46,201 bases of DNA from an uncultured Thioclava sp. (GTDB taxonomy: Bacteria > Pseudomonadota > Alphaproteobacteria > Rhodobacterales > Rhodobacteraceae), in the NCBI RefSeq assembly GCF_913064665.1, contig NZ_CAJYBT010000029.1, positions 1 through 46,201 of the forward strand. Reading direction: 5' to 3'. The position numbers and the translations under genes are program-made. Positions within the stretch are counted from its first letter, which is position 1. Each line of letters opens with the position of its first letter. Under the pieces are notes generated by a model. That model was not told the origin of the DNA and did not search any database. It saw only the letters and a program-made list of their open reading frames with translations. Positions 37,610 to 46,201 of the stretch are shown here, one piece after another.

Positions 37610-38130
37610 TCTCCTCTGCCGTGAATAGACATGGGGCGTCTGCAGCATGCGGGCGCCCCCAATTAATTTGGCCAGTGGCGCGCATATCACACCAGTGCAA
37701 CCTATTGCGATGGATAACGATAACGCCCCTCGGAAAACGCCTGTCATCGACGCGTGGCACGCCAATGCTCCTTGGGGAATACGCTTGGTTGGAGCGCTGC
37801 CTGTTGATCTCACCAACCTTCGCCTCGGTCTAAACGTCTCCTCCAAGCGCCGCCAAATTCGCCTCATCTGCGAAGCGTACCAAGGACCGCCCCTTGCGAC
37901 TGGTGAGACTGTGCAATGCGCGTGGGGCTTGATGACTGCTCTGCCTGCCCGCCCCCCTGAAAACTCCAGCGTCCGATGATCCAAAATTCGTAGGCAGGGC
38001 ACAAACTCGCGGAATCTCGCGACAAACTTAGGACCCGCGGGGGACAGATCATGCACACGGCTCTGCTGTACAAATCGGCAATACGCTACAGATACGACCT
38101 GTAGAACGGGTCTTGTTGGGCGGCCGGTTT
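37610..38130. other. 521 bp without a convincing gene
   Basis: A 110-codon open frame exists on the plus strand at 37647-37979 (containing APWGIRLVGALPVDLTNLRL) and a longer one on the minus strand, but neither has a clear ribosome site or recognisable similarity. I do not call either as a gene. It may be decayed sequence at the boundary of the signalling island. Confidence 0.45.
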
Positions 38131-38922
38131 TCAGGCGGGATGCCGCCCGAATAGCTTGCTTTTCTTGATAGCAGGCTCTTGAGATTCCTCCACCTTCCCC
38201 TGTTGCGAAAGAATTTCACCCGCCTCACCCAACGCAAAAGCCTTGCGTTCATGATCTTCCAAATCGCTCATGAAATCGAACAACCGCTCGCAGGAATTTG
38301 AGATTTGTTTGATCGCAGCATTATACTTGCTTTCGTCCGCCCTTGCTGAGTTAAGGTCACGAACGTGACGCATCATTTTTGTGATCAAGGGCTTCATTTC
38401 AACAGCACATTCCTTGGTGAACTTATCAAGGACAGCTTCGACCCTGTGACGCACAACCTCGTGGCTTTCGACAGAACGGGTAAGACTTGCCTTTTGCAGG
38501 GCGTTGATCGTGGCTCTTCGCAGGGTTTCGTTAGACAAATCGTCCTTGACCAGAAAGTCACTGCACCCGTTTTTCATCGCCTCGATTGCGACTTCGGACT
38601 TACCGTCGCCAGTTACCATGATTGTGGCAGCGTGGCGGTTGCGCGGATCAAGCTCGATGGCGTCAATGGCGAGCAATCCGCTGCCTTCCGGAAGGTGATA
38701 GTCCAGAAAAATCAAGTCAAACGTATTGAGTTCTAGTGCGGTGCCCAGTGATTCAAGCGAATCCGCTTCGTAGATATCCACCTCGAATTCGAGTCCCTCG
38801 CACATGCGCCGCAGCCGGGCCCGATCGAACCTTTGGTCGTCGACGATCAGAATTCTCGCAAAATCTGGTATTTTGATTGTGTTTTTCTGAACCTTGAATT
38901 GGATTTTTTGCATACTGGTCAA
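38131..38922 (-). CDS. response regulator: receiver domain plus helical C-terminal domain
   Basis: 263 residues. The receiver domain (~22-145) has all key residues: Asp28/Asp29 in LIVDDQ, phospho-Asp74 in IFLDYHLP, Thr104 in MVTGDG and Lys126 in LVKDD. The remaining ~115 residues look wholly helical and highly charged (HRVEAVLDKFTKECAVEMKP, MMRHVRDLNSARADESKYNA, ERLFDFMSDLEDHERKAF) with no HTH, GGDEF, EAL or kinase motif; a protein-protein output is likely. TTG at 38922 is the best start: GGAG lies seven bases upstream, while the ATG at 38913 has no ribosome site. It is separated from the kinase/regulator pair downstream by a decayed insertion sequence. Confidence 0.85.
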   Translation of the reverse strand: MTSMQKIQFKVQKNTIKIPDFARILIVDDQRFDRARLRRMCEGLEFEVDIYEADSLESLGTALELNTFDLIFLDYHLPEGSGLLAIDAIELDPRNRHAATIMVTGDGKSEVAIEAMKNGCSDFLVKDDLSNETLRRATINALQKASLTRSVESHEVVRHRVEAVLDKFTKECAVEMKPLITKMMRHVRDLNSARADESKYNAAIKQISNSCERLFDFMSDLEDHERKAFALGEAGEILSQQGKVEESQEPAIKKSKLFGRHPA

Positions 38923-39054
38923 GGATACACTCCACTAATATCTCTAAGGTATTAAAGGGTAATTTCATGAAAAAAGTATAAAAAACACCGGGGATCGCTC
39001 TAATTGAAGCGACATCCCTTACAAATATGTGACGTCCCGAACTGCCTGAACTCG

Positions 39055-40012
39055 ATATAAGGACGCAGCAGACTACTACCGATGGCGCAAGGACTGAGCC
39101 ATGTCACGACATTGGCCTGAGTGACAATGGCGAAGGGGGGCAGAAGCCGGGATCAGTTGAAGCGGCTGAAGGAGCTGGAGACCGAGACTACCCGGCTCAG
39201 ACGTGCGGTATCAGATCTGACGCTGGACAAGAGGGGACTGACCGAGGCCGCCCGAGGAAACTTCTGAGCCCTGCCCGCCGCCGTAGGTGTATTGATCACG
39301 TGCGGCAGGCCCCCTCCACGCAGCGAAAGGTTCGCTATGACCTGCCAGACGAAGAACGGTTGACCGAGGAGATCATCGAGCTGACGCGAGAGTTCGGGTG
39401 CTATGCACTGTCCGCCAAGCGATACTTGCGTCGCCGTGAGGGGATACCCACATGATTACCGGGATGCTGAACACCAGCGGCTGGCATGTTAATCACAAGC
39501 GCCTCACTCGGCAGATTTGCGATGCAAATCGCCTGCCGGGCAATGGTCGAGTGACGCGTTCACCAAGGAGGCGCTGGTCATCCGTCTCAAACGCAAGCTA
39601 AATTCCGTCAACGTGTTCGACGCCTTGAGCCGATCTGTTCATGCCTCACGCGGCCCGCCTGAGGTCACAAGATCAAACAATGGCGCGGAGTTCATCGCCA
39701 AGAAGGTGCGCACCTGGATCGGAGCGGCGGGCTCCAAAACAGCCTTCATCGCATCAGGGTCACCTTGGGAAAACGGCTCCTGCGAGAGCTTCAATGCTCG
39801 GTTCCGGGACGCGTTGCTGACCGGTGAGGTCAGCTCGACGCCGCGCGCGGCACAGATCCTGATCGAACGATGGCGCCCCCCCCTACAATACGGTCAGGCC
39901 GCACAGCGCCCTCCGATACCGACTGGCCGCATCAGAAAGTTTCGTCCCGATAGATCAAAGGCTAACCATGCACTAACAATTAACTTGGACCACTTAAGAG
40001 TTAATGGGAGCA
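39055..40012 (+). pseudogene. decayed IS3-family element (IS407-like orfA/orfB remnant)
   Basis: Pieces of both transposase frames survive in order on the plus strand, broken by stops, frameshifts and deletions. From orfA: YYRWRKD near 39070 and QLKRLKELETETTRLRRAVS, then SDLTLDK. From orfB: RRRCIDHVRQAPSTQRKVRY, EERLTEEIIELTREFGCY, then a deletion removing the first catalytic Asp region, then FTKEALVIRLKRKLNSVNV, SPWENGSCESFNARFRD. The second catalytic Asp is Asn (RSNNGAEF for RSDNGAEF). TTGGACCACT at 39985-39994 looks like the remains of the right terminal repeat; the left end is not identifiable. Not mobile. Confidence 0.85.
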
Positions 40013-40076
40013 CGCCAACAGTGCTGTCAGCATCCATTTGTGAGAGGCGATCCTAAAAATGTAAAAATGTCATGTC

Positions 40077-40538
40077 CTAGCGCGGCATTTCGACAACTTT
40101 GGTATAGGCGTCAATCATCTCGAGCGCTTTCACAAAGCTGTCGCCGAGATCGTCTTTCACGATGTATCCCGCAATATTGCTTTCGTAGGCTGCAGCGACA
40201 TCCGTTGGTGCATCGGAGGTGGACAGCACAAATATTACGGCAGGGTGCAACTTTGGATCTTTGCGTACTTCTTCCAGAAACTCAAAGCCGTTCATGCGTG
40301 GCATATTGAGGTCCAGCGTCACAAGATAGGGAGACAAAAGAGAATCTTCGCCACAATCGCCGCGCAAGATGTTCAGCGCATGTTGGCCATCTCTGGCTAT
40401 TGTCACTGGATTGATGATTTTAAGTTTCTTTAACGCGCGCTTCACAGCCATCACACTGACCACATCATCATCGACGATCAGGAATTTGACCGGGGCCGTC
40501 TGAACATCAAAGGATTTTTCTTGTTGTGTTGCTACCAT
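40077..40538 (-). CDS. single-domain response regulator (Rcp1/CheY-like)
   Basis: 153 residues, receiver domain only: acidic pocket IVDDD (~21-25), phospho-Asp76 in VTLDLNMPRMNG, Ser/Thr in LSTSDAP (~106-111) and Lys128 in YIVKDD. The sequence resembles Rcp1-type regulators that pair with phytochrome-like kinases. The ATG at 40538 follows AAGGG; the in-frame TTG at 40556 is less well placed. It lies 24 bp after the histidine kinase gene in the same direction, so the kinase is its likely phosphodonor. With no output domain it must act by protein contact or as a phosphorelay shuttle. Confidence 0.9.
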   Translation of the reverse strand: MVATQQEKSFDVQTAPVKFLIVDDDVVSVMAVKRALKKLKIINPVTIARDGQHALNILRGDCGEDSLLSPYLVTLDLNMPRMNGFEFLEEVRKDPKLHPAVIFVLSTSDAPTDVAAAYESNIAGYIVKDDLGDSFVKALEMIDAYTKVVEMPR

Positions 40539-40562
40539 TTTTAGTGCCCTTATCAAATTGGC

Positions 40563-42515
40563 CTACGCGGCCTGGTTGATTGAATTTACATCCTCAGATT
40601 TTTCCGGAAAATCGAATGTAAATATGGTACCTCGTCCACGCTCAGGATCAGATTGAATCGAGATTGACCCACTGTAGTGTTCTAGCAATTTGCGAATGAT
40701 AGCGAGGCCAAGCCCGCTTCCTTCAACCTCATCGCGTGAGCGAAGGGTTTGAAAAAGACCAAATATCTTGTCGTGGTATTTCGGCGAAATTCCTGGCCCG
40801 TCATCCTGAACAGAACAGACTATTCGACCTGACCTAATATGTGTATCCACCTTGATGGAACCCACTGGCTGATCATGATGTTTAATACCATTGCTGACCA
40901 GATTGAGTAGTATCTGACGTAGCGGTGTTGCATATGTCACGACAGAGTCGCACGACCCCGAAAATCTGATATGGAAACGATCATCTGGATCGAGCAATTC
41001 AGCAGTTTCCTTGAGGATACCTTTGATCGAAAGCTCGGTCAGATCATCGGCCTCTTTTCCAACACGGGAATAGGCCAAAAGATCAGATAGCAACTGGTTC
41101 AACCGCCCGATACGCCGCTGCAGCAACGCCATGTTTTCGCGACCTTCAGATGAGAATACATTATCGCTGTCCTCTAAGGTCCAATCGGCCAAATCTTGAA
41201 TTGCCCGTAACGGAGAACGTAGGTCATGTGCCGCAACATAAGCGAATTTTTCCAGTTCTGTGTTGGAACGCTGCAACTCCTGTGCGTTCATCTTGAACAC
41301 CTCAAGCGCGCTTGCAATATATCCCAGCTCATCCGGACCGGTTACGTCAACATCATACGTGGTCTCGCCTGCAGCAATCGCAAGGACCGATTTGGTCAGG
41401 CTTGCCATCCGTTTGTTGATTTGTCTTTCCACAATAAAAACCAATGCCCAACCGATTGCGAAAAAAGAAACGAAACTTGCGATAGCGAGAATGACGATCA
41501 TTCTTTCAGTCACCGCTGTAAGGTTTTGCCTGGCCGCATCGATTTGGCCTTGCGCAACTGCAGTTAGTTGATTCGACAAGACTGAAATAGTCTCAGCTGG
41601 AACGAATTGCTCAACTTTTTGAACATCGAGAGCGGCGCGGCGCGCCAGCAGCTCTTCGACTTCTTTGACAACACCAGTATCACCAAAAAGATGGTCACGC
41701 ATTTTCACGACTTCACCGGCCATGCCTGTCCTAGTCGCGCTCTCCTGTAGTTGTCCGATAAGGACAACAATTCCTCTCATTTTAAAGCGAAGTGTGTGCT
41801 CAGCCCTTTCAAGCTCACCTGCATCCGAGATGTTAGACAACCCCAAGGCAGCATCTATAATCGATTCAAATTTCAAGGTTATTGCCGCTATTGCATAAGC
41901 CAATACCAGCTCTTGATTGAAGTTCTGTTCATTCATATTGGGGCCAACCACACCGTCAGGCTGATCTACCTGATAATTGCGATTCGTTGCAGAAGCTGTC
42001 TCATAGGACAAGTCTTCCAGAAGCGTCCGCATAGTTTTGCGAAGTACTGCCAGCTTTTCAATTCTTTGTTTTAGTAGTTCTTCATGCAGTATTATAGAAG
42101 TTTTTGTCTCCAGAATTTCAGCTGACCCAAGATAAATCTTGTTAAGAGCCTCTGTTAGTTTTTCTACAACATCTTCCGAAGGGCCGCCGTCGGAAAACTC
42201 TTGAGTGTTTGCATGCAAGATCGACAGTCTCACCGTCAGCCTTTCACTCAAAGGATTGAGCTCAGAAAGCTGATCGGCGCTTTCAATCTTTTGTAAAAGG
42301 AGCAACAAATTCTTCAGGCTTCGTTCGGTTTCCTCTGCCCTGACAAAAACCGGGATTGAAGAAAGGGTCAGTAGATCTACAGACCGATTCAGCGACTGAA
42401 CCTGGAAAAAGCCAACACCCAATGCCCCAAACAGAACAATGGAAATCATTAGGAATACGATGCGAAGCCGAAGGACGATGCCGGGCGCAATTTGGAAAGA
42501 TTTCTGCCCTGACAT
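40563..42515 (-). CDS. membrane histidine kinase with ~300-residue helical periplasmic domain
   Basis: 650 residues: TM1 ~14-37; a periplasmic region ~38-337 that looks entirely helical; TM2 ~338-361; HAMP ~363-410; HisKA with His430 in YVAAHDLRSPLRAI; HATPase with N-box SNGIKHH (~541-547), DDGPGIS (571-577) and EGSGLGLAI (598-606). The catalytic part is of the phytochrome-associated type. A long all-helical sensor of this size recalls TorS, which reads a ligand through a periplasmic binding protein; here a Tat-exported binding protein is encoded divergently 122 bp away. The ATG at 42515 follows AGGGGC. Base composition is well below that of the flanking core genes. Confidence 0.92.
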   Translation of the reverse strand: MSGQKSFQIAPGIVLRLRIVFLMISIVLFGALGVGFFQVQSLNRSVDLLTLSSIPVFVRAEETERSLKNLLLLLQKIESADQLSELNPLSERLTVRLSILHANTQEFSDGGPSEDVVEKLTEALNKIYLGSAEILETKTSIILHEELLKQRIEKLAVLRKTMRTLLEDLSYETASATNRNYQVDQPDGVVGPNMNEQNFNQELVLAYAIAAITLKFESIIDAALGLSNISDAGELERAEHTLRFKMRGIVVLIGQLQESATRTGMAGEVVKMRDHLFGDTGVVKEVEELLARRAALDVQKVEQFVPAETISVLSNQLTAVAQGQIDAARQNLTAVTERMIVILAIASFVSFFAIGWALVFIVERQINKRMASLTKSVLAIAAGETTYDVDVTGPDELGYIASALEVFKMNAQELQRSNTELEKFAYVAAHDLRSPLRAIQDLADWTLEDSDNVFSSEGRENMALLQRRIGRLNQLLSDLLAYSRVGKEADDLTELSIKGILKETAELLDPDDRFHIRFSGSCDSVVTYATPLRQILLNLVSNGIKHHDQPVGSIKVDTHIRSGRIVCSVQDDGPGISPKYHDKIFGLFQTLRSRDEVEGSGLGLAIIRKLLEHYSGSISIQSDPERGRGTIFTFDFPEKSEDVNSINQAA

Positions 42516-42637
42516 CTAAGCCCCTGCGTACATCTGGGTGGATTGTTCGGCAAACTTAGCGATGACAAATTAATGAACAATTAAAGATGTTGCGCAATCC
42601 TCTGGCTCACACATGAAACTCAGGAACAGCATTAAAA
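42516..42637. promoter_or_regulatory. divergent promoter region with a 7-bp inverted repeat
   Basis: 122 A+T-rich bases between the kinase and binding-protein genes. ATTGTTC (42542-42548) and GAACAAT (42575-42581) form perfect 7-bp arms 26 bp apart. This could be a shared operator site, but arms of this length can occur by chance. No -35/-10 is assigned. Confidence 0.4.
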
Positions 42638-44113
42638 ATGACCAAAGGGCAAACAGAAGGCGGTAACTTCACCCGCCGCAACGCGATCTTGGGCATGGCT
42701 GCATCAGCGGCCTATTCCTTCTGCCCATCGTCTGGTGCGGCCGCATCAGATCGGTCGCTACATGAAGTCGTGGCGCAACGTGTGCGTGAGCTGGCAGGTG
42801 GGCGGCAACTGAAGCTACGGTTACTATTACCAAACGGATCGGGTGGAAATGTGAACCCCATCATATCTGTTTTCCAATCGATGACCGGAATCGAAGTTCT
42901 CTCATTTGAAACACCCGTTGATGAGATCAATACAGAACTGTCCCTTGATGCCCTCAGCAATTCTAAGAATTACGACGTTGCCCTACCCGCGACATTTGGC
43001 GTGCCTGACCTGGTCGCATCCGGTGCAATTATACCTATCACTGAGTTTGCAAAGCGCTATGAGCCTCAAGGTTTTCGTGAGGACATCCTGTTTGGCGTCG
43101 GCGACAGTTTCGATAATGAAATCTACGGATTTCAAACGGACGGCGATGCTTATACCATGTTTTATCACAAAGGTATGCTAGAGAATCCAGACGAACGGGC
43201 GCGTTATGAAGACGCCTTCGGGCAGGTCTTGTCAAAACCTGAAACATGGCGTGAACTTGATCAACAAATGGCCTTCTTCAATCGACCAGATGAAGGGCAA
43301 TGGGGCGGGCTGTTGTTCAGAACACCGAGTTACCTTGCATGGGAATGGTGGGTCAGGTTTCATGCAAAAGGCATCTGGCCATTCTCTTTTGAGATGCAGC
43401 CACAAATCGCATCCGACGCTGGTGTAGAAGCTTTGGAAGAGATGATACGAGCGACGGACTACCTGCATCCAGAAACGTCTCAACTAGGGTTATTTGGAAA
43501 CTGGGAGCGCTACAGCCGTGGCGATGTGTTCTGCAACATCGGGTGGGGCGGGTCTCAAAAATATCTAAACGGCGAGAGTTCAAACATGCGCGGCAACATG
43601 GTTTTTGGCCCAACACCGGGGGGGATCGTCAACGAAAAACTGTTGATTACACCATATTTCAATTGGGGCTGGAATTATGTTGTGTCCAGCAATAGCGACC
43701 TGCCTGAAATTGCCTATTTATTCGCTCTGTTTGCATCCACGCCTCAAATGTCGACGCTGGCCGTCCGGCAGAGCGATGGTTTTTTTGATCCCTTCCGCCC
43801 TGAGCACTATGAGGATGAAGGGATAAAATCTGCTTACTCACCCGAATTTCTGACAGTGCAGCGCGCCAGTCTGGAATCGGCCATTCCCGATCTCTACCTA
43901 GAAAATCAGGGCGAGTATTTTCGCGTGTTGAGCGAATGGTTAACACGTGCTTTGGCGCGGGAAGTTACTCCGAGAACGGCTCTTGAGCGTGTTGCCCAAC
44001 GATGGCAGTTGATTACAAATGGCTCGGGACGTCCTGCGCAAAAAACACGATGGGCGCAGTTGCGCGCCAAATACCCAAAACAAATCAGGGATGAGTTGAG
44101 GGACATTATGTAA
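42638..44113 (+). CDS. Tat-exported extracellular solute-binding protein (family 1)
   Basis: 491 residues. N-terminal twin-arginine signal (FTRRNAILGMAASAA, Arg13-Arg14) with cleavage near GAAAS. The mature part matches the maltose-type family 1 binding-protein pattern: LKLRLLLPNGSGGNVNPIIS, NSKNYDVALPATFGVPDL, YTMFYHKGMLENPDERARYE, PETWRELDQQM, GDVFCNIGWGG, YFNWGWNYVVSSNS. No permease or ATPase gene is nearby; instead it sits between two histidine kinases. It may serve sensing rather than import, or supply a distant transporter. The ligand is unknown. An AGGA lies ~13 bp before the ATG. Confidence 0.85.
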   Translation: MTKGQTEGGNFTRRNAILGMAASAAYSFCPSSGAAASDRSLHEVVAQRVRELAGGRQLKLRLLLPNGSGGNVNPIISVFQSMTGIEVLSFETPVDEINTELSLDALSNSKNYDVALPATFGVPDLVASGAIIPITEFAKRYEPQGFREDILFGVGDSFDNEIYGFQTDGDAYTMFYHKGMLENPDERARYEDAFGQVLSKPETWRELDQQMAFFNRPDEGQWGGLLFRTPSYLAWEWWVRFHAKGIWPFSFEMQPQIASDAGVEALEEMIRATDYLHPETSQLGLFGNWERYSRGDVFCNIGWGGSQKYLNGESSNMRGNMVFGPTPGGIVNEKLLITPYFNWGWNYVVSSNSDLPEIAYLFALFASTPQMSTLAVRQSDGFFDPFRPEHYEDEGIKSAYSPEFLTVQRASLESAIPDLYLENQGEYFRVLSEWLTRALAREVTPRTALERVAQRWQLITNGSGRPAQKTRWAQLRAKYPKQIRDELRDIM

Positions 44114-44189
44114 CTGAGATGGGAACCCATTAATCGGACATTTGACATTCAATTCATGAAAATACAACTTCCCAACGCGGAGTAAACAG

Positions 44190-44924
44190 ATGAGCATTCA
44201 AAATAACGGACGTATGCCTGAATCCGAATTGAGGGCCACGAGCCCTACTCGTGATTCGAAGGACTTCGAAGAATTCGTCCAATTGCTTAGCCATGATGTT
44301 CGCAATTCTGTAAGGGCATTGTTTGAGTTGCCTCAGTGGATTAAGGAAGATTTAATCGCAGAAGGTTACCCGATCGATGGTTCCGTCGCGGAAAATTTCG
44401 ACCTCATGGAAATCCACACGCGTCGATTGGATCAGATGCTTTTAGATTTGCTGACTTATTCCCGAGTTGGATGCAAGCAAACAGTGCAATCCGTCAGCTT
44501 GGTGGATGCAATTCAACATGTATGCGCACAACTATCTATACCGAAAGGTTTTCAAATCACCAGCAATCTCAAATGCAAATCCATTCATATGGGTGATCGG
44601 GATATTTTGACCTTGCTTTCAGCGCTCGTTTCCAACGCGATCAAGCATCACGATCGAGACGATGGCGCCATACATATCTCGTCCCGGCAAAGTGGCGACG
44701 AATGCATAATTTCTGTACATGATGATGGGCCGGGTATTCCCGAACAACATCGATCTAGGGTCTTTGACGTCATGACAACCCTTAATTCGCGCGATGAAGT
44801 TGAAGGCAGTGGAATGGGCCTAGCGATCGTTCGCAAAATTGTTGAATTTTATGGGGGGCACTTAGGCTGGGCAATGACCGACGGTGACCGCCATACCTGT
44901 TTGGAAATGTGTTTTAAGATTTGA
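44190..44924 (+). CDS. soluble histidine kinase without an input domain
   Basis: 244 residues, no transmembrane helix, no PAS/GAF. HisKA with His35 in LLSHDVRNSVRALF, N-box SNAIKHH (~148-154), DDGPGIP (178-184), EGSGMGLAIVRK (~205-216). Its ATP-binding end closely matches the membrane kinase at 40563-42515 (SRDEVEGSGxGLAI and SNxIKHHD are shared), so the two are related. ATG 44190 follows GGAG. Encoded 76 bp after the solute-binding protein, same direction, probably cotranscribed. With no sensor of its own it may act as a phosphatase or histidine phosphotransferase, or form mixed dimers. Confidence 0.88.
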   Translation: MSIQNNGRMPESELRATSPTRDSKDFEEFVQLLSHDVRNSVRALFELPQWIKEDLIAEGYPIDGSVAENFDLMEIHTRRLDQMLLDLLTYSRVGCKQTVQSVSLVDAIQHVCAQLSIPKGFQITSNLKCKSIHMGDRDILTLLSALVSNAIKHHDRDDGAIHISSRQSGDECIISVHDDGPGIPEQHRSRVFDVMTTLNSRDEVEGSGMGLAIVRKIVEFYGGHLGWAMTDGDRHTCLEMCFKI

Positions 44925-44962
44925 ACGAATGCGGCTTGTTAGCATGCGCCCTGCATGCAACC

Positions 44963-45814
44963 TGAATAGCCCCGCGTTTTCTAGACGCCTTCGGGTCTCA
45001 GTTTCCGCTGCCGTTCGAACTCGACGGGCGACAGCATCCCGTTTCTCGCATGCTTGCGCTTCGGGTTGTAGAACATCTCGATGTAATCGAACACGTCCTG
45101 CCGGGCCCGTTCGCGGGTTTTGTAGGTCCGGCGCCTGATCCTTTCGCGCTTGAGAAGGTTGAAGAAGCTCTCGGCAACCGCATTGTCGTGACAGTTTCCG
45201 CGACGGCTCATCGAATGCTCCAGATTGTGGCCTCGCAGGAACGCGGCCCAGTCCATGCTGGTGAATTGGCTGCCCTGGTTCGAATGGATCAGAACCTTTG
45301 CCTTCGGCTTGCGGCGCCAGACGGCCATGTGCAGAGCCTGCAACACAACGTCCGTAGTCTGCCGGCTCTGCATCGACCAACCAACCACGCGGCGTGAGAA
45401 GAGATCGATGACGACCGCCAGGTAGGCAAAGCCCTCCTGCGTGCGGATGTAGGTGATGTCGGTGACCCAGACCTTGTCCGGTGCCCCCACGTCGAACTGC
45501 CGGTCGAGAGTGTTATCGACGACGACCGACGGCCTGCCGCCATACCCACCGGGGCGGCGCTTGTAGCCGATCTGAGCCTTGATCCCAGCCCGCTTCGTCA
45601 GACGGGCAACACGGTTCACGCAGATGCTTTCGCCCTGTTCGATCAGGTCGTCGTGCAGCTTGCGGTGACCATAGACCTTGCCGCTCTCGACCCACGCCTC
45701 CTTCAGCATCCTGGTCTGCCGCAGATCCTCTTGGGCCCGCTTGCTCAGCGGGGTCTTCAGCCAAGCGTAGAAGCCGCCCGGTTGGATGCCCAAGCATCGG
45801 CCCATCGCCCGCCC
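44963..45814 (-). mobile_element. truncated IS3-family insertion sequence
   Basis: The right-hand terminus is recognisable at 44963 (TGAATAGCCCCGCGTTTT..., the TG-start, C/G-rich then T-rich form of IS3-family ends), 18 bp beyond the orfB stop. The other end, orfA and the start of orfB are missing because the sequence switches to unrelated DNA near 45810-45820. Confidence 0.8.
44981..45814 (-). pseudogene. IS3-family transposase orfB, N-terminally truncated, catalytic Asp replaced
   Basis: About 278 residues of an IS3-family orfB: CLGIQPGGFYAWLKTPLS, YGHRKLHDDL, VTDITYIRTQEGFAYLAVV with the first catalytic Asp, then HSNQGSQFTS and, 35 residues on, Glu in NAVAESFFNLLKRERIRRR. It ends NGMLSPVEFERQRKL. 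The second catalytic Asp of the DD(35)E triad is Asn (codon AAC for GAC), which should abolish transposition unless it is a sequencing error. The reading frame continues past 45814 only as antisense of the P450-like fragment. Confidence 0.88.
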
Positions 45815-46046
45815 AGCGACCTGCCGATGTTCCTCGGGTGGTACAACGCGATGATGGCCGGGTTCTGGACCGACGCCGAACTGCGCCGGCTCGGTCGGCA
45901 GGCGCACCTCGAGTTCCAGGACTACCTCGCCCCGATCATCGCCGAGCGCGCCGAACGACCGGGCGAGGACTTGATCTCACGCGTCCTGCACGCCCAGGTC
46001 GACGGTGAACGCATGGACCGCGCCGACATCGTGGACCTCTTCAGGT
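45815..46046 (+). pseudogene. cytochrome P450 fragment of actinobacterial character
   Basis: From 45818 a plus-strand frame reads DLPMFLGWYNAMMAGFW, then YLAPIIAERAERPGEDLISR and VDGERMDRADIVDLF. This matches the region of bacterial cytochrome P450s just before the oxygen-binding I helix. There is no start, no heme Cys region and no I-helix AGxxTT: the similarity stops near 46046. G+C is much higher than in the neighbouring genes. The abrupt junction with the insertion sequence suggests a chimeric contig end. Confidence 0.6.
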
Positions 46047-46201
46047 TGATCGTCACCGGACGACTCGATCTCACGCAGTCCATCTCGGCGCGCTACCCCC
46101 TGGCCGACACCAACGCCGCCCTCCCCGCCCCGTCTCCCCCCGCTTTACGCGCCCTCCGCTTCCGCGCCCCTCGTGTCGCCGCCCCCCTGTCCCTCTCCAC
46201 C
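46047..46201 (+). other. alcohol-dehydrogenase-like scrap then pyrimidine-rich terminal sequence
   Basis: The same frame now reads IVTGRLDLTQSISARYPLAD followed by TNAAL, which resembles the C-terminal end of zinc-type alcohol dehydrogenases rather than a P450. From about 46115 the DNA is mostly C and T and encodes nothing plausible. I read it as low-quality or chimeric sequence at the contig end. Confidence 0.45.

Follow-up and report, generated by a model that had tools for sequence, protein, structure and literature searches.

A solute-binding protein paired with a TorS-type membrane kinase: a probable receptor unit in a low-G+C island of an uncultured Thioclava sp.

Why does a gene for a solute-binding protein (SBP) lie among genes for histidine kinases and response regulators? 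The question is raised by positions 38131-44924 of contig NZ_CAJYBT010000029.1 (assembly GCF_913064665.1) from an uncultured Thioclava sp., analysed here as a complete contig of 46,201 nucleotides (hereafter the window). Mechanical calling of open reading frames (ORFs) by script recovered five open signalling ORFs, with the same limits as in an earlier note that had grouped them as a sensory system. Judging from sequence comparisons and structure models, we consider it quite probable that this SBP binds ligand on behalf of a membrane receptor instead of a transporter, and that it feeds a TorS-type kinase and its regulators. The cluster is made up as follows.

38131-38922, minus strand: response regulator with a helical tail (RRh; Pfam Response_reg, 1.1e-16)
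40077-40556, minus strand: single-domain response regulator (RR1; Pfam Response_reg, 6.9e-16)
40563-42515, minus strand: membrane histidine kinase of 650 aa (HKm; Pfam HAMP, HisKA, HATPase_c)
41511-42398, minus strand: periplasmic TorS-type sensor domain of HKm, about residues 40-335 (fold and profile matches)
42516-42637, no strand: intergenic region between the divergent kinase and SBP genes (ORF coordinates; divergent pair conserved)
42638-44113, plus strand: SBP of the SBP_bac_1 family (Pfam, 26.8 bits against a cutoff of 26)
44190-44924, plus strand: soluble histidine kinase without an input domain (HKs; Pfam HATPase_c, 6e-21, and a sub-threshold HisKA)

HKm is built of a transmembrane segment, a periplasmic domain of about 300 residues, a second transmembrane segment, HAMP, HisKA and HATPase_c; hydropathy places the two segments at residues 19-37 and 340-358, about 300 residues apart, as the earlier note had described. 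Pfam and model results likewise agree with its description of a soluble kinase lacking an input domain, a receiver-only regulator and a receiver with a helical tail. In the AlphaFold2 model of RRh, the receiver is followed by two long helices (131-195, 197-234) that form a helical hairpin, and a known output domain is absent (predicted local distance difference test score, pLDDT, 81.8; residues 232-256 and both ends below 50). We considered and rejected the tail as a degenerate kinase dimerisation domain: the hhalign probability was 0.5%, and the Foldseek matches to some receiver-kinase proteins (about 190-215 columns, root-mean-square deviation above 11 Å) do not support a kinase-domain reading. 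The SBP bears an N-terminal twin arginine (R13, R14), kept across its family, which is consistent with the export by the twin-arginine translocation (Tat) system that had been claimed for it; the family match and the conserved arginines are seen, and export itself stays a prediction. Both promoters presumably lie within 42516-42637. In the seven ORFs scanned with Pfam (the five genes and two transposases), no permease, ATP-binding cassette (ABC) ATPase or DNA-binding regulator was found, which upholds the earlier statement for these ORFs; further ORFs of at least 90 aa in the cluster overlap the five genes and lie outside that scan.

Is this arrangement peculiar to the window? Two samples were used, which share some genomes (for example, L031 is L052; L0xx and L1xx label the relatives' loci). 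In a family sample of 295 genomes, 31, the window's included, have a match at E 1e-20. Matches to the SBP of at least 40% identity occur at 13 places in 12 other genomes; at 11 of these places a membrane kinase gene lies opposite the SBP gene, and the remaining two have a contig end on that side. A wide scan of one genome per species over 84,980 species gave 80 loci, 80 of 86 relatives being kept. Sixty-nine fall with the window in a sensor clade, ten are of another type, and L129, with a fragmented SBP, was left off the tree. Since four of the 69 are cut less than 400 bp from the SBP start (L057, L064, L065, L100), 65 can be assessed. A receptor gene adjoins the SBP gene in 63 of these 65, 62 of them found by script (56 divergent, 6 downstream) and L097 by eye. 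Hence the layout that characterises three-component systems, an SBP gene next to a gene for a kinase with an extracytoplasmic domain, is found across genomes in 63 of 65 loci. Two transmembrane segments more than 150 residues apart were found in 60 of the 62 receptors (L099 is cut and L067 has one segment); among adjacent receptors, L081 carries GGDEF-EAL, and in L099 the contig stops short of the output domain. In L104, no more than a partial kinase was seen, 836 bp downstream.

HKm and the SBP therefore form a conserved divergent pair across loci. The other three genes are found less widely: homologues of RR1 (above 60 bits) in 35 of the 80 loci, of HKs (BLAST class) in 18 and of RRh (above 80 bits) in 12. 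All five kinds occur together in nine loci (L051, L052, L053, L054, L058, L061, L066, L068, L118; the L061 kinase is counted from its profile match only), and all five genes also in two further family-sample genomes (L036, L039). A conserved neighbourhood had been set beforehand as a test of the grouping, and the five genes do adjoin in other genomes.

What, then, does the kinase sense with? No Pfam match of its own was found for the periplasmic half of HKm. A profile of residues 1-430 of 60 such receptors (out of 63; L072, L116 and L119 were dropped) matches TorS (3o1h_A, E 2.9e-9) over nearly the whole domain, and the matches that score higher in the same PDB profile search are confined to the HAMP region of chemoreceptors. 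The model of HKm residues 1-430 (pLDDT 91.8) has TorS structures as its top five Foldseek matches in the PDB, four of them from TorS-TorT complexes: 3o1h_A, 3o1i_A, 3o1i_B and 3o1j_A at E 7.9e-7 to 1.5e-6 with a template-modelling (TM) score by target of 0.80-0.84, and 3i9y at E 4.0e-5 with 0.93. Sequence identity to these structures is 9-10%. The PilJ and McpS sensor domains rank after TorS, with weaker E-values. The NCBIfam TorS equivalog model gives HKm 137.5 bits, below its cutoff of 676.5. TorS binds, and is switched through, the periplasmic protein TorT; the adjoining SBP is therefore the obvious partner of HKm. With the conserved unit, the TorS-type fold makes signalling from SBP to kinase the natural reading of the joint sensory function that had been proposed.

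The kinase half of HKm is of an ordinary type, and the output halves of its relatives differ. The receptors of L062, L096 and L107 are hybrids, PAS domains occur in those of L062, L071, L107 and L119, and four of 12 receptors in an alignment (L038, L041, L042, L043) have, by eye, another HisKA type. In L081 (5288-7867), a TorS-type sensor (PF21689, 1.2e-4, below its curated cutoff) is fused to HAMP-GGDEF-EAL and encoded divergently from the same SBP subfamily, and by its predicted domains is a cyclic di-GMP (c-di-GMP) version of the receptor. On these comparisons, the predicted stable unit is the SBP with the sensor, and the output half varies. Over 57 pairs, SBP distances correlate with sensor distances at r = 0.69 (0 of 999 Mantel permutations as high) and with kinase distances at r = 0.58; L072, L123, L099, L116, L119, L081 and four family loci were left out of this test.

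An SBP beside a kinase might nevertheless work for a transporter encoded elsewhere, with HKm as no more than a gene neighbour and a direct sensor of the same ligand. The transporter-type relatives bear on this. On the SBP tree, the 70 sensor-associated rows (69 loci and the window) form one clade with 100/100 support, outside which stand ten ABC rows and four distant rows; the root is a midpoint, the four outgroup rows are flagged as meeting on long branches, and nine rows have unusual composition. The ten loci outside the sensor clade lack a kinase. Permease genes follow the SBP gene in nine of the ten, two in eight loci and one in L089 (contig end), and in the eight two-permease loci two ATPase genes lie behind the permeases; the tenth, L122, is cut by a contig end. 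The nine ABC importer operon loci are L074, L080, L083, L084, L085, L087, L089, L092 and L114. By BLAST, their operons also hold a HisD-like dehydrogenase (8/9), a protein of about 390 aa (8/9), LacI (6/9), a metallo-β-lactamase-fold protein (5/9) and a second, sugar-type (RbsB/RbsC-like) set (5/9). In all seven more distant loci that were read (L044-L050), permeases lie beside the SBP. The closest relatives of the SBP, by contrast, sit with kinases and not with a permease and an ATPase; constant company of the latter two was what the earlier note had named as fatal to its proposal. Among the ORFs scanned, the cluster itself shows none of the permease and ATPase genes that would accompany the SBP gene of an ABC importer.

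The SBPs of the two types differ at few conserved positions, of which the comparison named three: among 72 positions with a constancy of 95% or more over 67 sensor rows, 67 show the same residue in at least 85% of nine transporter rows (L129, L122, L097, L072 and L123 left out). The SBP core thus looks unchanged, at the level of sequence, between transporter and sensor types. This similarity, together with the ABC operons of the transporter-type relatives, is what would be expected if the SBP still served a transporter, and direct binding of small ligands is known from helical-bundle sensors, among them McpS, which is a weaker fold match and has malate or succinate bound. We nevertheless regard this explanation as very unlikely. 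Within the sensor clade, the SBP gene never has a permease gene like those of the transporter operons next to it; weak permease matches (23-33% identity) lie about 3 kb off in L118 and about 10 kb off in L035 and L040, and the window's genome has only one SBP match. A search of the 295 family genomes, among them the window's, at E 1e-20 and without a positive control found no match to the protein of about 390 aa, a marker of the transporter operons. In addition, the best fold matches of HKm are to TorS, which depends on a binding protein. The parsimonious reading of the tree is a single switch from transport to sensing, in which the SBP would have been recruited once as a co-receptor of a TorS-type kinase.

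That the SBP serves a receptor is indicated by gene conservation, the sensor fold, the relation of the SBP to an ABC-associated lineage and its conserved core, all seen in sequences and models. It also fits the tally of a 2024 study, in which 10 of the 11 characterised SBP-kinase couples are encoded by neighbouring genes (PMC11113362). Several points weigh against it. The wide scan used two peptide patterns taken from sensor-type members, so that transporter types are probably under-sampled. The sensor-domain profile misses 11 of the 62 adjacent receptors, six of them downstream, and these 11 may have sensors of another kind. PF21689 (TorS_sensor_domain) matched nine of 60 relatives at E ≤ 0.1 and did not match HKm of the window. 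L093 has an SBP without a nearby kinase. The SBP-sensor correlation is not significantly above the SBP-kinase one, the 95% interval of the difference running from -0.025 to 0.292. Furthermore, the same 2024 study describes three SBPs encoded near two Pseudomonas kinases with no evidence there of activating them (PMC11113362); gene adjacency is therefore no proof of partnership. Finally, the contact between SBP and kinase, the shared ligand class and the phosphotransfer pairs are our inference.

Which ligand might such a receptor read? Because the SBP core looks unchanged, its ligand class would be that of the transporter relatives, and the recruited SBP probably kept it. A carbohydrate-like ligand is suggested by the SBP_bac_1 family and by the sugar-type permeases of the transporter relatives; we offer it as a lead, no more. 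The best-scoring solved relative of the SBP is a trehalose/maltose-binding protein, and in the available text of a survey of model bacteria almost all SBP_bac_1 members are predicted sugar binders (PMC9602780). Metabolic neighbours give no further pointer: none is recurrent in the sensor clade as a whole within the 25 most frequent neighbour clusters, which consist of one group's shared chromosomal flank, the ABC-ATPase superfamily at scattered positions and ORFs antisense to cluster genes (L072, L123 and the ABC loci left out).

The sulfonate DHPS was also considered as the ligand. The HisD-like enzyme of L089 has sulfopropanediol 3-dehydrogenase as its best PDB match (1.2e-135; best histidinol dehydrogenase, 1.9e-75). 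The motif G-R-Y-A/S-H, given in the available text of PMC11382572 as marking the sulfopropanediol dehydrogenase HpsN, is missing in all seven HisD-like proteins of ABC operons that were read (L074, L080, L083, L084, L085, L087, L089; an eighth, in L092, is cut and was left out), each having G-K-Y-P-L, and this candidate was rejected. These seven HisD-family dehydrogenases without the sulfonate-binding histidine perhaps have a third specificity. Separately, in the sensor-type locus L062 (10135-12630), LacI-like and HisD-family genes lie 0.7-3.2 kb past the SBP gene, and that HisD-family protein carries the HpsN motif (G-R-Y-S-H). As for the protein of about 390 aa, its gene lies downstream of the ATPase genes in L083 (13590-14777) and likewise in L074, L080, L084, L085, L087, L092 and L114; the L083 copy has no Pfam or NCBIfam match. 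It might be an enzyme or a binding protein, as yet undescribed, that acts in that pathway.

How would the signal leave the receptor? In the mechanism we propose, the SBP would be exported, probably by Tat, and bind a small ligand in the periplasm. It would then dock on HKm, encoded divergently, at the TorS-type helical domain; docking would alter HKm autophosphorylation and with it the flow of phosphate to RR1, encoded just downstream. HKs and RRh could form an added branch or a feedback, and for these two the wiring is a guess. Because the cluster is without a DNA-binding regulator, protein contact, as the earlier note had suggested, or c-di-GMP, to which some relatives point, is favoured as a likely class of output.

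More specifically, the cluster might report its ligand to a c-di-GMP circuit, the regulators steering diguanylate cyclases or phosphodiesterases, as in NspS-MbaA. The L081 fusion of the same TorS-type sensor to GGDEF-EAL points in this direction, as does a receiver-GGDEF-EAL gene beside the cluster in six of the 69 sensor-clade loci (L070, L073, L077, L078, L091, L127; BLAST for all six, Pfam for L077, L078 and L091). GGDEF-EAL genes are common, however, and 6/69 stands without a background rate. In the window, BLAST found no GGDEF or EAL domain and the receptor is a kinase, and the 62 other loci have no receiver-GGDEF-EAL neighbour or fusion in the DNA covered. We therefore hold a c-di-GMP output to be possible, though rather doubtful. 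In three Granulosicoccus loci (L094, L102, L126), a GGDEF-EAL gene lies further off, at least 4 kb beyond the SBP gene; the same loci encode, also downstream of the SBP gene, a CheB-CheR-PAS-receiver protein (Pfam for L094), the two lying at about 9.9-16.3 kb of the loci.

How does the system compare with known ones? Put forward as a candidate undescribed system, it is not supported as such in kind, since SBP-activated kinases are an established class (PMC11113362, PMC9602780), with about ten couples characterised by 2022 according to the available text of PMC9602780. Of the systems we found, TorT-TorS comes closest in receptor fold and CuaDSR in arrangement. Like TorT-TorS, the cluster has a kinase in the membrane whose periplasmic part shows this helical fold and whose gene accompanies that of a periplasmic binding protein. 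TorT has a type I periplasmic-binding-protein fold, and TorR is the DNA-binding regulator of the Tor system. The partner in the window is instead of the SBP_bac_1 family and not TorT-type, no TorR-like DNA-binding regulator is present, and TorS is a hybrid sensor histidine kinase/response regulator (its NCBIfam name), whereas the window has separate single-domain regulators.

CuaDSR of Ruminiclostridium cellulolyticum, as far as its available description goes, has a second sugar SBP beside a class I kinase with an extracellular part of about 267 residues and seven modelled helices; the SBP-kinase contact was seen by two-hybrid, and a YesN/AraC-family regulator is the output and controls transporter genes (PMC10384115). 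By this description, it resembles the window in setting an SBP beside a kinase and differs in output and organism group. In NspS-MbaA, again by description, a polyamine SBP feeds a transmembrane c-di-GMP receptor (PMC9993111, PMC8967002); the likeness is the SBP-fed transmembrane receptor, although the window's is a kinase and GGDEF-EAL is met only in the relative L081. The relatives' own ABC importer operons use the same SBP subfamily, with permeases and (contig permitting) ATPases instead of a kinase. Among the matches listed in the open-access literature, which mostly leaves aside subscription papers, we found no description of this cluster, and we do not claim that it is absent from print. 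SBP-kinase pairing is known; what is new is that a TorS-type sensor is joined with an SBP of the SBP_bac_1 family, that the regulators lack DNA-binding domains and that a relation to transporter SBPs can be traced.

The cluster would thus be a chemical sensor of roseobacter-type bacteria and beyond. The SBP family offers some sixty comparable SBP-receptor pairs with a before-and-after, transporter against sensor SBPs with a common invariant core, so that the change of a transport SBP into part of a receptor can be tested directly. A broader scenario is tentative, and we put it at slightly less than an even chance. An SBP lineage would have been captured once by a TorS-type sensor, and the resulting dedicated receptor, reading a common carbohydrate-like compound, would have spread over Alpha- and Gammaproteobacteria and Bdellovibrionota; its output would have been swapped freely among stand-alone regulators, hybrids and GGDEF-EAL, and the split relay of two kinases and two regulators in the window would control a non-transcription target. 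Single metagenome bins suggest further phyla for the receptor family.

Is the window's copy a working one? As the earlier note had observed, it lies in a low-G+C island: the cluster genes have 0.47-0.50 G+C against 0.627 for window positions 1-37000. Two stretches of insertion sequence (IS) DNA accompany it.

39517-40056, plus strand: IS3-type transposase remnant (rve_3, 5.2e-10; transpos_IS3, 7.9e-18, below its cutoff)
44962-45812, minus strand: IS3-family element forming the right border of the cluster, near the contig end (rve, 8e-30; transpos_IS3, 3.3e-94)

The remnant splits RRh from the other four genes; in L051, whose SBP is the closest among the relatives, the corresponding distance is 117 bp. 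No inverted repeat of at least 12 bases was found at 38930-40076. No match at E 1e-20 was found in G254, the one other genome of the genus in the sample. Because of the low G+C, the IS DNA inside and beside it and the lack of a match in G254, the window's copy looks acquired. These same features would fit a decaying, horizontally acquired island whose sensor core may be intact and whose output was severed by the IS insertion. We think decay unlikely: none of the five ORFs is interrupted, and inspection by eye of translations and alignments shows the conserved kinase and receiver residues in place. The kinase-SBP pair in 49 other loci averages only 3 G+C points below its surroundings, with a difference of more than 5 points in 10 of the 49. 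In addition, nine Sulfitobacter-Roseobacter loci share a chromosomal setting, whose genes were read by eye as purE/purK to one side and, at eight of these loci, groEL to the other.

Plasmid records gave no sign of a carrier for the cluster, none covering 80% of window positions 37900-46201. Of 446 records, the best 20 align to the right-hand IS alone (about 10% of the query), its DNA being 80-84% identical in the best of them, and plasmid-encoded proteins reach no more than 30% identity to the SBP (17 records at E 1e-30). The similarity to plasmid IS ends near 45812, leaving 45813-46201 beyond it. The rest of the contig is taken up by an ORF at 45653-46201 without a Pfam match, which may belong to a truncated further gene or mark a join made in assembly.

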